Part shown: positions 18,569-21,112 of the stretch, in pieces
Layout of the letters: each line of letters starts with the position of its first letter
Numbering within the stretch: the stretch's first letter is position 1
Notes under the pieces: generated by a model
The model's input: the letters and a program-made list of their open reading frames with translations, nothing else
What the model was told of the DNA's origin: nothing
Database searches by the model: none
Position numbers and translations under genes: made by a program
Origin: Lutibacter sp.
Lineage (GTDB): Bacteria > Bacteroidota > Bacteroidia > Flavobacteriales > Flavobacteriaceae
Direction: 5' to 3'
NCBI RefSeq assembly: GCF_013041805.1
Contig: NZ_JABDRI010000050.1
Coordinates: 1-36,606, forward strand
DNA length: 36,606 nucleotides

Positions 18569-18730
18569 TTAACCTACTAATTTGATTGGTTCAATGTTTT
18601 AATTTATAAATTAAATTTGAATACTAAATAATTGGAATTATAAATGTTATAAATTACTTTTACAAAACCTAGAAAAGTTCAAGAATATTTAATGATCCAA
18701 TATTATTTTGTAATAATATTTAATCATTTG

Positions 18731-18808
18731 CAGTCGTAATAATTTGAGCAATAAGAAATTATCGTGGGGACGACAGTTTTTTTCAAACCTATTGCGGCTG
18801 TTTTTTTT
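18731..18808 (+). repeat. 70-base hairpin element, unit 1, with T-run
   Basis: CAGTCGTAATA (18731-18741) pairs over 11 bases, with two G-T pairs, with TATTGCGGCTG (18790-18800). After a small internal loop, TTTG (18743-18746) pairs with CAAA (18784-18787). The apical part contains CGTGGGGACGACAG (18763-18776). Eight Ts follow the stem, as in an intrinsic terminator on the plus strand. An alternative fold pairs GTCGT (18733-18737) with ACGAC (18770-18774). I do not recognise it as a known RNA family. Confidence 0.6.
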
Positions 18809-18821
18809 AGAATAACATAAA

Positions 18822-18897
18822 CAGTTGTAAAAACTTAATCTTATTATACTACCGTTGTGGGGACGACATTTATAAGTTTTTTTTGCAGCTGTTTTTT
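18822..18897 (+). repeat. 70-base hairpin element, unit 2, with T-run
   Basis: This is a tandem copy of unit 1, 91 bases downstream. CAGTTGTAAAAA (18822-18833) pairs with TTTTTGCAGCTG (18880-18891), then CTTA (18834-18837) with TAAG (18873-18876) across a three-base bulge. The apical part holds GTTGTGGGGACGACA (18854-18868). Compared with unit 1 the closing stem changes a C-G pair to T-A, a compensating change. Six Ts follow. Confidence 0.6.
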
Positions 18898-19085
18898 ATT
18901 TAAAAAATGAGGACAATTTTTATTCTTTTAAAAAGTTTACAAATTCACACAATTTTTTGCGACCGTGCTTAACTTGCCCCGCTTATTTTTATAATTAAAA
19001 TTTGGCGTTAATGTATTTATATATATCAAATGAGCTTCATTTTTTACTTTTCTAACAAGATTTTTTTCGGTGGCTACCATCATCA

Positions 19086-19571
19086 CTATTTTTTGATAAA
19101 AATTTTAGTAAAATAATTTCTTCCTTGTCTATTTTGTTCAATTGAAATTCCAATATGTGTATATGAATCGTTTTCAATAATTGCTTTATGATTTTCATTA
19201 TTGAGCATAGCGTTGATTACACTTGTTGCACTACTAAAACCGTAAGCTAAACTCTCTCCAGTCCATTTAGCATTGGTTAGTGCCACGGAATTTTCCTGCT
19301 GTTCAATAAAGACATCATGATTCATTTCATCATTTATAATAGTATGAGATGATTGGGTTAATGCTACAGACGATATAATATCAAGAGTTTCGAAGGGTAG
19401 CATTCCTAATGAGATTCTATACTCATTTATTAAGTCAATTATTTCTAATTCCATTGTCGCATACTCCGTTTTAAATTCATTAAAATAAATTCCTTCATCA
19501 CCAGAGCTACAGGAATTAAAAACAGTGCATACGAGTGCAAATAGTATTAATTTAATTTTTAGGGATTTCAT
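19086..19571 (-). CDS. CAP-domain (SCP/PR-1) lipoprotein
   Basis: The 161-residue protein begins with a lipoprotein signal ending FNSCSS (Cys near residue 20), so it should be lipid-anchored and extracytoplasmic. The CAP domain follows: LIDLINEYRISLGMLPF (about 46-62), an early His (QSSH), MNHDVF, TGESLAYGFSS with the conserved Glu, and NNENHKAIIENDSYTHIGIS with the second active-site His. All cavity residues are present. CAP proteins are secreted and often interact with other cells or lipids, but the activity is not deducible. Its leader contains AACCCCAACAAC, and structured repeats lie on both sides. Confidence 0.85.
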   Translation of the reverse strand: MKSLKIKLILFALVCTVFNSCSSGDEGIYFNEFKTEYATMELEIIDLINEYRISLGMLPFETLDIISSVALTQSSHTIINDEMNHDVFIEQQENSVALTNAKWTGESLAYGFSSATSVINAMLNNENHKAIIENDSYTHIGISIEQNRQGRNYFTKIFIKK

Positions 19572-19611
19572 TGCTAGTTGTTGGGGTTATCTTTTGCTGT
19601 TTATATTAATA

Positions 19612-19682
19612 CAGCCGCAATTTTATCGTTTAAATATACTGTTGTGGGAATAGTATTTCTATAGATAAATTTTTTGCGGCTG
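19612..19682 (+). repeat. 71-base hairpin element, unit 3
   Basis: CAGCCGCAA (19612-19620) pairs perfectly with TTGCGGCTG (19674-19682), then TTTATC (19622-19627) with GATAAA (19664-19669) across a small internal loop. The apical part holds GTTGTGGGAATAGTA (19641-19655). It has the same length, closing stem and loop motif as units 1 and 2, but no T-run follows. It lies upstream of the CAP gene, within what would be its promoter or leader region. Confidence 0.6.
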
Positions 19683-19853
19683 ATTAATTCTATTAGTAAT
19701 AATATGTGTTTTATAATTCATATTATAATAACCAGACAAAACGAAAAAGTATATGCTTGAAAAAGTTGAATAGCAAAATTCACTTTCAACAAAATTACTA
19801 TTTAATGTAGTAATTAAAATACTAACTATTAATACAATTAATATTGCACTCAT
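19659..19853 (-). CDS. Possible small membrane peptide, 64 aa (doubtful)
   Basis: The reading frame starts with ATG and encodes one hydrophobic N-terminal segment (MSAILIVLIVSILITTL) followed by a polar tail. Its 3' end runs into hairpin element unit 3, and it has no recognised relatives. Directly before the ATG the minus strand reads CCCCCAAAACCCC. It may be a real small membrane peptide or a chance frame in AT-rich DNA; I lean to the second. Confidence 0.22.
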   Translation of the reverse strand: MSAILIVLIVSILITTLNSNFVESEFCYSTFSSIYFFVLSGYYNMNYKTHIITNRINQPQKIYL

Positions 19854-20064
19854 AATCTTTGGGGTTTTGGGGGTTATTATATTTTAGTTTAAAGTAAGAG
19901 GTAGAAACAAAGTTCTTACTAATCATCTAACAAAATATTGCAGTTTTTCGGATTGCTTTATATGTTTGTGACTACAGTGAGTCTACCTCTATAGATTTGA
20001 TATTTTCAAATTCTTACTAATTTAATCTAATCTTACTTACTTACTATTTATTTTATGATTTGAA

Positions 20065-20104
20065 CAAATTATAAATAATTAGGGGGATAATTATTTATAA
20101 TTTG
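20065..20104. repeat. Perfect 17-bp inverted repeat with GGGGGA loop
   Basis: CAAATTATAAATAATTA (20065-20081) is the exact reverse complement of 20088-20104. The six-base loop is GGGGGA on the plus strand, TCCCCC on the minus strand. No T-run follows closely in either direction except AAAAAA on the 3' side of the plus strand, so in the minus direction it has six Ts before rather than after the stem. It is therefore not a standard terminator. Confidence 0.75.
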
Positions 20105-20178
20105 AAAAAATCAATTGAGTTTGGGGTTGATTTATTTATTCATATTCTTCATTTTTAATTTAACTTCTTTCAATCTTA

Positions 20179-20220
20179 TTATTTAATTAAAACTAGGGGT
20201 AATTAATTTTATTTAAATAA
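20179..20220. repeat. 14-bp inverted repeat with GGGG in the loop
   Basis: The hairpin exposes a G-run. TTATTTAATTAAAA (20179-20192) pairs with 20207-20220 with one mismatch around the 14-base loop CTAGGGGTAATTAA. Confidence 0.55.
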
Positions 20221-20271
20221 TTCATTTTTAGGGTTGATTTAATTATTTACTATTATTCAATTTGGGGTTGA

Positions 20272-20718
20272 TTAATCTTTTCTAAATTTTTCCAATAATG
20301 TATTAAGAGTTTTAATTTCTGAATCGGTAAAGTTGTTAACTATGCTTTTTTCAAATTCAGCGTGCACAACATCAATTTCACTTAACAAATTTAAACCGGC
20401 CTCTGTAATTCTAATTTCAACCTTTCTTCTATTTTGCTCACTTTGAATTCGCGTTATTAAACCTTTTAATCGTAATTTTTCAACTAAACGTGTTGTATTA
20501 CTATTTTTACTAACCATTTGGTTTTGTAAAGTTAAAAGATCTGCTGGTTCACCTTTCAATACTCTTAAAGAACGTAATACTTGAAATTGTTGAATTGATA
20601 ATGCGTATTGCTTTAGATGATCTGAAAACTTCTCATTCATCCAATTACCTGTTCGCAAAATATTTGCAATTGTAAATTCAGGTAAATTTAACTCATTACT
20701 TTTATCATTATAGTTCAA
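20272..20718 (-). CDS. MarR-family transcriptional regulator
   Basis: The 148-residue winged-helix DNA-binding protein has the MarR layout: an N-terminal dimer helix (ILRTGNWMNEKFSDHLKQY), the recognition region LLTLQNQMVSKNSNTTRLVEKL (about 62-83), the wing IQSEQNRRKVEIRITEAG with the conserved Asp position replaced by Glu-Gln, and a C-terminal dimer helix. The start appears to be TTG at 20718, because no ATG exists until residue 27 and a stop closes the frame upstream. A complete promoter with a palindrome over the -7 box lies upstream, which suggests self-repression. The ligand is unknown. Confidence 0.88.
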   Translation of the reverse strand: MNYNDKSNELNLPEFTIANILRTGNWMNEKFSDHLKQYALSIQQFQVLRSLRVLKGEPADLLTLQNQMVSKNSNTTRLVEKLRLKGLITRIQSEQNRRKVEIRITEAGLNLLSEIDVVHAEFEKSIVNNFTDSEIKTLNTLLEKFRKD

Positions 20719-20750
20719 CTTCGGGGGGACAACAATTGTTTATACTACTA

Positions 20751-20794
20751 TTGTATATACATCAAATGTATGTACAAATAATTTATCATCCAAA
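20751..20794 (-). promoter_or_regulatory. marR promoter with operator-like palindrome
   Basis: On the minus strand TTTG (20791-20794), a 20-base spacer and TACATTTG (20763-20770) match the Bacteroidota promoter consensus. A palindrome, TTGTATATACAT / ATGTATGTACAA with a CAA spacer and one mismatched pair (20751-20777), is centred on the -7 box. A protein bound there would block the promoter. Confidence 0.7.
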
Positions 20795-21112
20795 CTTTTT
20801 TGTTAAAAACTTTTGATTTTCTACTGAATAACGATAAAAAAGTAAATAAACATACAGACTTATTATATTAGTATACTAATTATTAAACATTTAACACGTA
20901 ACAGTTAAAATATTATTTATCAACTATTTATGTCGATTATTATTAAAAATATTTCAACGATAATCGTGTTAAATCCTGACAAATAAACTCGATCCATGAA
21001 AAATTAAAAAAAATAATGAATATTTTAAAATTGTTAATAACTACCCGATTTGTTAATAAAGATGACGATTTTTTAAATGAATTTGTAAACTTCGTATAAG
21101 CAGTAACTTAGG

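Follow-up and report, generated by a model that had tools for sequence, protein, structure and literature searches.

The window, a stretch of 36,606 nucleotides from Lutibacter sp., contains a compact locus that encodes a MarR-family regulator and a CAP/SCP-domain lipoprotein and carries three hairpin units, here termed U1, U2 and U3 (Table 1). One strand bears, in this order, the MarR gene, a set of C-rich boxes, a possible upstream ORF, U3, the CAP gene and a small ORF, and U2 and U1 are convergent to them on the opposite strand. This arrangement is kept in several loci of the genus, and some copies of the locus have no recognisable CAP gene. Other units come after a pair of PorP and PD40-OmpA genes (identified by scanning in locus L018, and deduced from gene lengths elsewhere). 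The protein of OmpA type in this pair does not reach the NCBIfam cut-offs for PorE or CHU_0125. In several loci, the units behind this pair face a CAP or a peptidase M3 gene. A third unit subtype is found near glycine dehydrogenase and pyruvate dehydrogenase E1 genes.

Table 1. Positions and supporting evidence of the features of the hairpin locus in the window.
Feature	Position	Strand	Evidence
AT-rich hairpin just 5′ of U1	18691..18728	+	AATGAT..ATCATT, AATATTATT..AATAATATT; sequence
U1 hairpin RNA	18730..18801	+	outer stem CAGTCGT/GCGGCTG, apical TCGT-GGGG-ACGA
T-run after U1	18801..18808	+	sequence
U2 hairpin RNA	18821..18892	+	outer stem, internal TATACTACC, apical GTTGT-GGGG-ACGAC
T-run after U2, terminator-like	18892..18897	+	sequence
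Small ORF 3′ of CAP gene	18937..19080	-	47 aa (..IYINTLTPNFNYKNKRGK..); 19 distinct versions in fetched loci
CAP/SCP-domain lipoprotein gene, proposed target	19086..19571	-	PF00188, E 2.9e-8
C-rich CAP translation start region	19574..19590	-	ACCCCAACAAC, CCCC about 12 nt before ATG
U3, probable inverted relative in CAP 5′ leader	19612..19682	-	outer-stem wobbles, pair counts, consensus fold
Possible upstream ORF ending inside U3	19659..19853	-	64 codons; C-rich start CCCCCAAAACCCC, 19861-19873
Second conserved element, MarR-CAP intergenic	19895..20003	-	long stem AGAGGTAG..CTACCTCT around conserved AGCAATCCGAAAA
C-rich boxes, intergenic after MarR gene	20082..20268	-	CAACCCCAAA and similar; family D1
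MarR-family regulator gene, proposed target	20272..20718	-	PF01047, E 5e-9
MarR leader	20719..20765	-	GTAGTATA, complement of U2 TATACTAC

The versions of the small ORF measure about 46–60 aa and share the motif IYINTLxPxFxYxN; those scanned gave no Pfam or NCBIfam match. The upstream ORF starts 171–182 nt before U3 in 12 loci and ends inside U3 in most of them. Its position and its C-rich start are conserved, and its peptide is poorly so. We compared it with type I toxin–antitoxin systems, and this idea was weakened because it did not hold across loci: the peptide is hydrophobic and alike only in some of the 12. The second conserved element between the MarR and CAP genes yielded 22 raw matches in the fetched loci, two of them unrelated, with up to three per locus (L010). 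It has no Rfam match and a fold z-score of -2.2.

The initial annotation had described three hairpins of about 70 bases at this locus, and its coordinates, lengths, closing stems, base changes, GTGGG cores and two T-runs all match the sequence. The hairpins also go beyond chance. When the plus-strand RNA of each unit was folded against 200 dinucleotide shuffles, U1 (-22.6 kcal/mol, z -4.7) and U3 (-24.3 kcal/mol, z -5.9) clearly outperformed them, with 0/200 shuffles as good in either case, and U2 did so modestly (-14.9 kcal/mol, z -2.1, 8/200 as good). The reverse strands of U1 and U2 fold far less well, and that of U3 somewhat less well. In an alignment of 10 U1 orthologues, 95.4% of 260 stem cells are paired. 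The covariance model R1 recognises U1 with an E value of 2.9e-4 and U2 with 6.2e-12, the latter being also one of its training sequences. Several U1 orthologues show, on reading by eye, an inverted repeat of differing sequence in the same place as the AT-rich hairpin 5′ of U1.

A lineage-restricted family of structured RNAs

A wider pattern retrieved 59 units that fall into three subtypes: 37 U2-like, 10 U1-like and 12 U3-like. Most U2-like units share a common outer stem, GCAGUCGUA..UGCGGCUGC and variants thereof, followed by a variable inner stem, the segment UACUACC and an apical hairpin GUUGU-GGGG-ACGAC. We aligned 36 of the 37 (alignment A1, which leaves out the divergent second unit of L131 as well as U1, U3 and the type-B units). 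Of their 504 stem cells, 99.8% are paired; just one cell of the outer nine-pair stem is unpaired, and changes on both sides occur at 5 of its 9 pairs, 29 cells in all. Thus, the compensating changes claimed from the three units of the window hold in relatives. Sliding the partner columns by one to three positions lowers pairing to 22–79%. None of 500 column shuffles reached the observed paired fraction, the number of double-change cells or the covariation score; the number of double-change pairs was reached by 8/500 and the number of pair types by 190/500. At the centre of the loop, GGGG is present in 36/36 aligned units and in one orientation.

Units of a further kind, type-B, were seen in L001, L054, L079 and L085 and combine the shared core with other stems; in L001 and L085 they stand in tandem. 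They adjoin glycine dehydrogenase or pyruvate dehydrogenase E1 genes, and in L085 they lie after an OmpA-type gene. In Lutibacter sp. C9 (L063, 6280-6640), four core repeats are spaced by about 70–140 nt beside duplicated CAP genes.

Scanning public genomes for a 15-base core returned at least 117 stretches, many of them in unrelated bacteria. After these unrelated matches had been removed by base composition and a flanking motif, at least 50 distinct low-GC units remained. Within the genome of the window, the covariance model gives six matches at E up to 0.01, namely U1, U2, U3, one on contig C89 on the 3′ side of an OmpA-type gene and two on contig C26. Weaker matches are U3 on the minus strand and one on contig C54 (E 0.32). 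The model search of Flavobacteriaceae genomes that the initial annotation had proposed did find further copies, in 7/397 genomes and 3/237 genera (a Lutibacter-like genus and two others), and among 395 genomes of the class it found one, the window's own; these scans used strict filters, by which weak copies can be missed. On these counts, a wide spread of the family was rejected.

The sequences also match no catalogued family, as had been suspected. Rfam 15 returned no match for the whole window and none at E up to 1 for 18600-20800, and its 13 matches in the loci of seven relatives all lie below the gathering threshold. Literature searches on small or structured RNAs of Lutibacter, on the core sequence and more broadly found no such RNA family.

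The wobble pairs of the outer stem bear on the strand on which the units are read. In the outer nine pairs of U1 and U2, the plus strand carries 41 G.U wobbles versus one A-C, whereas U3 carries 3 G.U versus 7 A-C (Fisher P 7e-6, for sequences that are related and not independent). Judged by these wobbles, U1 and U2 are plus-strand RNA hairpins. Of the two possibilities left by the initial annotation, structured RNA under selection is thus supported, by the one-sided wobbles together with the additional, compensated copies in relatives, and a DNA hairpin becomes less likely for U1 and U2, since a single strand carries their G.T wobbles.

The treatment of the three units as one equivalent set is doubtful where U3 is concerned. 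Read on the minus strand, the first eight pairs of U3 are free of mismatches in 13 loci, C-A being replaced by U.G, and the U3 consensus fold reaches -10.2 kcal/mol, versus -5.5 on the plus strand. A single homogeneous plus-strand family is weakened by these values and by the excess of A-C over G.U in U3. U3 is therefore probably a diverged, inverted relative of opposite polarity that lies in the CAP leader on the minus strand. This assignment carries a caveat, since single-sequence folds favour the plus strand in 9/12 cases and so disagree on the strand, and the covariance model, itself built from plus-strand units, scores U3 better on the plus strand (E 0.0025) than on the minus (0.056). Support for the U3 helix is modest (56/500 shuffles). 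The minus-strand segment TTCCCACAACAGTA of U3 is complementary to the U2 core over CCCACAAC, which is invariant in 13/13 U3 loci and followed by GGT in 12. U3 is located 39–53 nt before the CAP start in six loci. In 6/12 loci no CAP gene follows, and U3 may thus serve the whole message rather than CAP alone.

Complementarity to the starts of CAP and MarR genes

The GGGG loop has a counterpart in the leaders of the neighbouring genes. CCCC occurs at most 60 nt upstream of the start in 17/19 CAP genes that have a unit convergent to them at no more than 700 nt, compared with 1/5 other CAP rows of the group and 0/27 CAP genes of other Flavobacteriaceae; in this count L180 enters twice, with two start choices, and one leader of L014 is scored as unit-less though its downstream side lies outside the locus, where L063 shows units. 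GGGG is found in 0/51 of the CAP leaders examined. The C-runs of the unit-adjacent leaders often lie near -10. When these 19 leaders were shuffled 2000 times by mononucleotide, a mean of 1.9 and at most 8 of them bore CCCC. Moreover, predicted duplexes with the consensus core have a mean energy of -12.5 kcal/mol for 20 unit-adjacent CAP start regions, compared with -8.4 kcal/mol for 27 outside CAP genes and -8.0 kcal/mol for 331 other genes (Mann–Whitney P 2e-6 and 7e-5). In genome G310, the CAP start GTCCCCACAACAATG complements the genome's own RNA over 15 nt including the start codon, with 14 Watson–Crick pairs and one wobble. This RNA reads UAUUGUUGUGGGGAC where U2 of the window reads UACCGUUGUGGGGAC, that is, UU for CC beside the seed.

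Complementarity to the seed is strong in some proposed targets and amounts to little more than CCCC in others, which several CAP leaders exemplify; 2/19 have no CCCC. By longest contiguous run, pairing with the seed that spans at least 8 nt and includes five or more G-C pairs is seen in only 6/19 CAP leaders. Longer runs rich in G.U, up to 12 nt, exist in some control leaders; the score counts G.U pairs and in several leaders settled on a stretch away from the C-run. This test fails to tell all proposed targets apart from controls.

In MarR leaders, a C-run is present in 3/3 cases from unit-bearing genomes and in 0/27 elsewhere. The motif GTTGTCCCCC precedes a TTG start in 12 distinct fetched MarR leaders, and in the MarR leader of the window TGTTGTCCCC complements GGGGACGACA with one G.U pair. 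The three best duplexes among the 331 non-CAP genes (-32.3, -32.3 and -25.2 kcal/mol) belong to genes identified as MarR by Pfam, with GTCCCCACAACAATG at the start. One of these three, from L061, can adopt a hairpin whose loop is CCCC. Duplex energy alone does not separate targets, because the L246 MarR leader, which has no CCCC and comes from a genome in which no unit was found, scores -21.2, near the -22.5 of the window's own leader. A second block of complementarity in MarR leaders (GUAGUAUA) is significant in same-genus pairs (P 0.019 or less each, not independent), and the version from the other genus is not. Co-change of this block between genera was non-significant by shuffles (0.16 and 0.20) and was not used as evidence. 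As the two blocks follow the RNA's own 5′–3′ order, they cannot form one continuous duplex with it.

Within-genome comparison adds three CAP genes (L280, L281) and three MarR paralogues without CCCC. Conversely, a C-run without a unit in the stretch examined was seen in L276 (both the MarR and the CAP gene), L277 (the CAP gene) and L278 (two CAP genes), the stretch being short for L277 and for one of the L278 genes. C-rich leaders without a nearby unit are allowed if the RNA acts in trans. We also considered a genome-wide code of C-rich leaders. In the window's own genome, CCCCA shortly before ATGAAA occurs 27 times and the reversed control 21 times, and for a pattern of two C-runs the counts are 3 and 3; there is thus no general excess of C-rich leaders, and the code was rejected. 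Units and C-rich leaders share a clade, so their associations are not independent.

Possible function and relation to known systems

Most likely, the units give rise to base-pairing small RNAs that act on start regions, including several close to the units themselves. More specifically, we think it rather probable that U1, U2 and their paralogues are small RNAs that repress MarR and CAP messages through loop-to-start pairing. U1, U2 and the paralogues elsewhere in the genome would be expressed as regulatory RNAs of about 70 nt, or as processed 3′ ends, with terminator-like ends. A TAnnTTTG promoter box was found in the 75 nt upstream of only 1/10 U1 and 0/37 U2-like units. The variable paired stem would hold up the invariant apical GUUGU-GGGG-ACGAC, mostly with UACUACC before it, and the GGGG loop with its flanks would serve as the seed. 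The C-rich translation starts of two genes could be bound by this seed: that of the convergent gene for the CAP lipoprotein, where the C-rich sequence is often near -10, and that of the MarR gene in the locus. The inverted hairpin U3 in the leader is perhaps a further partner. Pairing at the start would block ribosome access, and the predicted effect is repression rather than activation.

Alternatively, the units could be protein-binding RNA hairpins, either a sponge of the CsrB–CsrA kind or a processing signal, with GGGG as the protein site and no relation to the C-rich leaders. A sequence-conserved hairpin inside a variable stem and the frequent tandem arrangement would suit such a role, which however does not predict complementary CCCC at the adjacent CAP and MarR starts, and we regard it as unlikely. 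It is still less probable that the MarR protein uses the GTTGT-NNNN-ACAAC palindrome as a DNA operator and that RNA structure matters only for termination. Palindromes like TTGT-ATAT-ACAA do occur in many MarR leaders across the family, and the half-sites of the U2 core resemble them. An operator of this kind is at odds with the invariant, singly oriented GGGG centre, with the C-runs at CAP starts, which lack the left half-site, and with U1, which has no GTTGT half-site.

We see little chance that the units are ordinary terminators between convergent genes. U1 and U2 do have the stem and following T-run of an intrinsic terminator, at least six T are present in the ten bases after the stem in 29/37 U2-like and 4/10 U1 units, and a position behind the PD40-OmpA gene, or facing the 3′ end of CAP, would be fitting. 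A terminator, however, has no need for an invariant loop of more than 10 bases within a changing stem, and the conserved loop is not explained by this function despite the stem and T-run. Integron attC sites carry the core boxes RYYYAAC and GTTRRRY. Mobile or recombination DNA hairpins (attC-like or REP-like) that spread between genes, suggested by the multicopy, palindromic and intergenic nature of the units and by the inverted copies flanking the CAP gene, are very improbable given the one-sided wobbles of U1 and U2, the T-runs after many units and the positions kept between species. On reading by eye, no attC core boxes were noticed in the stem ends of the units.

For base-pairing small RNAs, the closest analogue that we met is FopS/GibS of Bacteroides thetaiotaomicron (PMC11697453). 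Like the units, these are short multicopy sRNAs of the same phylum; their members are described there as intergenic, antisense or 3′-UTR-derived, and FopS represses the translation of mRNAs for surface proteins through a seed that binds beside their start codons. Association with RbpB is a further mark of FopS sRNAs. The FopS seed lies in a single-stranded 5′ stretch before the terminator hairpin, whereas the conserved core of the units is an apical GGGG hairpin within the closing stem. The units also differ in their proposed targets, a CAP lipoprotein and MarR, and in having an inverted relative in a leader. LhrC1-5 of Listeria is likewise a multicopy sRNA that blocks translation of a surface-protein mRNA via redundant short sites (PMC4132741). 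LhrC uses CU-rich sites, and the units would reverse this polarity, with a G-rich loop against C-rich starts. A study of the Flavobacterium psychrophilum transcriptome reports sRNAs such as Rfp18, states that Flavobacterium has no Shine–Dalgarno sequences and mentions the Flavo-1 RNA motif (PMC9723704). Flavo-1 is likewise a structured RNA motif from Flavobacteriaceae; the units give no Rfam match.

Beyond the pairing itself, we tentatively propose a locus-bound RNA circuit made of inverted copies of one hairpin gene, some serving as the regulator and another as one of its target sites. U1 and U2, as the sense copies, would give rise to small RNAs with a GGGG loop; U3, as the antisense copy, would reside with a complementary C-run in the leader of the CAP gene (or of a small ORF), and the MarR gene of the same locus would be a second target. 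A further copy, in the 3′ UTR of an outer-membrane operon of PorP/OmpA type, could feed the expression of that operon into the same control.

To our knowledge, the Bacteroidota, whose messages lack Shine–Dalgarno sequences, have so far yielded few families of small RNAs with predictable targets. The short exact seed, the candidate targets in its own neighbourhood and the natural variants of seed and target make loop-to-start pairing without a Shine–Dalgarno sequence directly testable in this family. The locus further suggests that a target site may arise by inverted duplication of the regulator itself.
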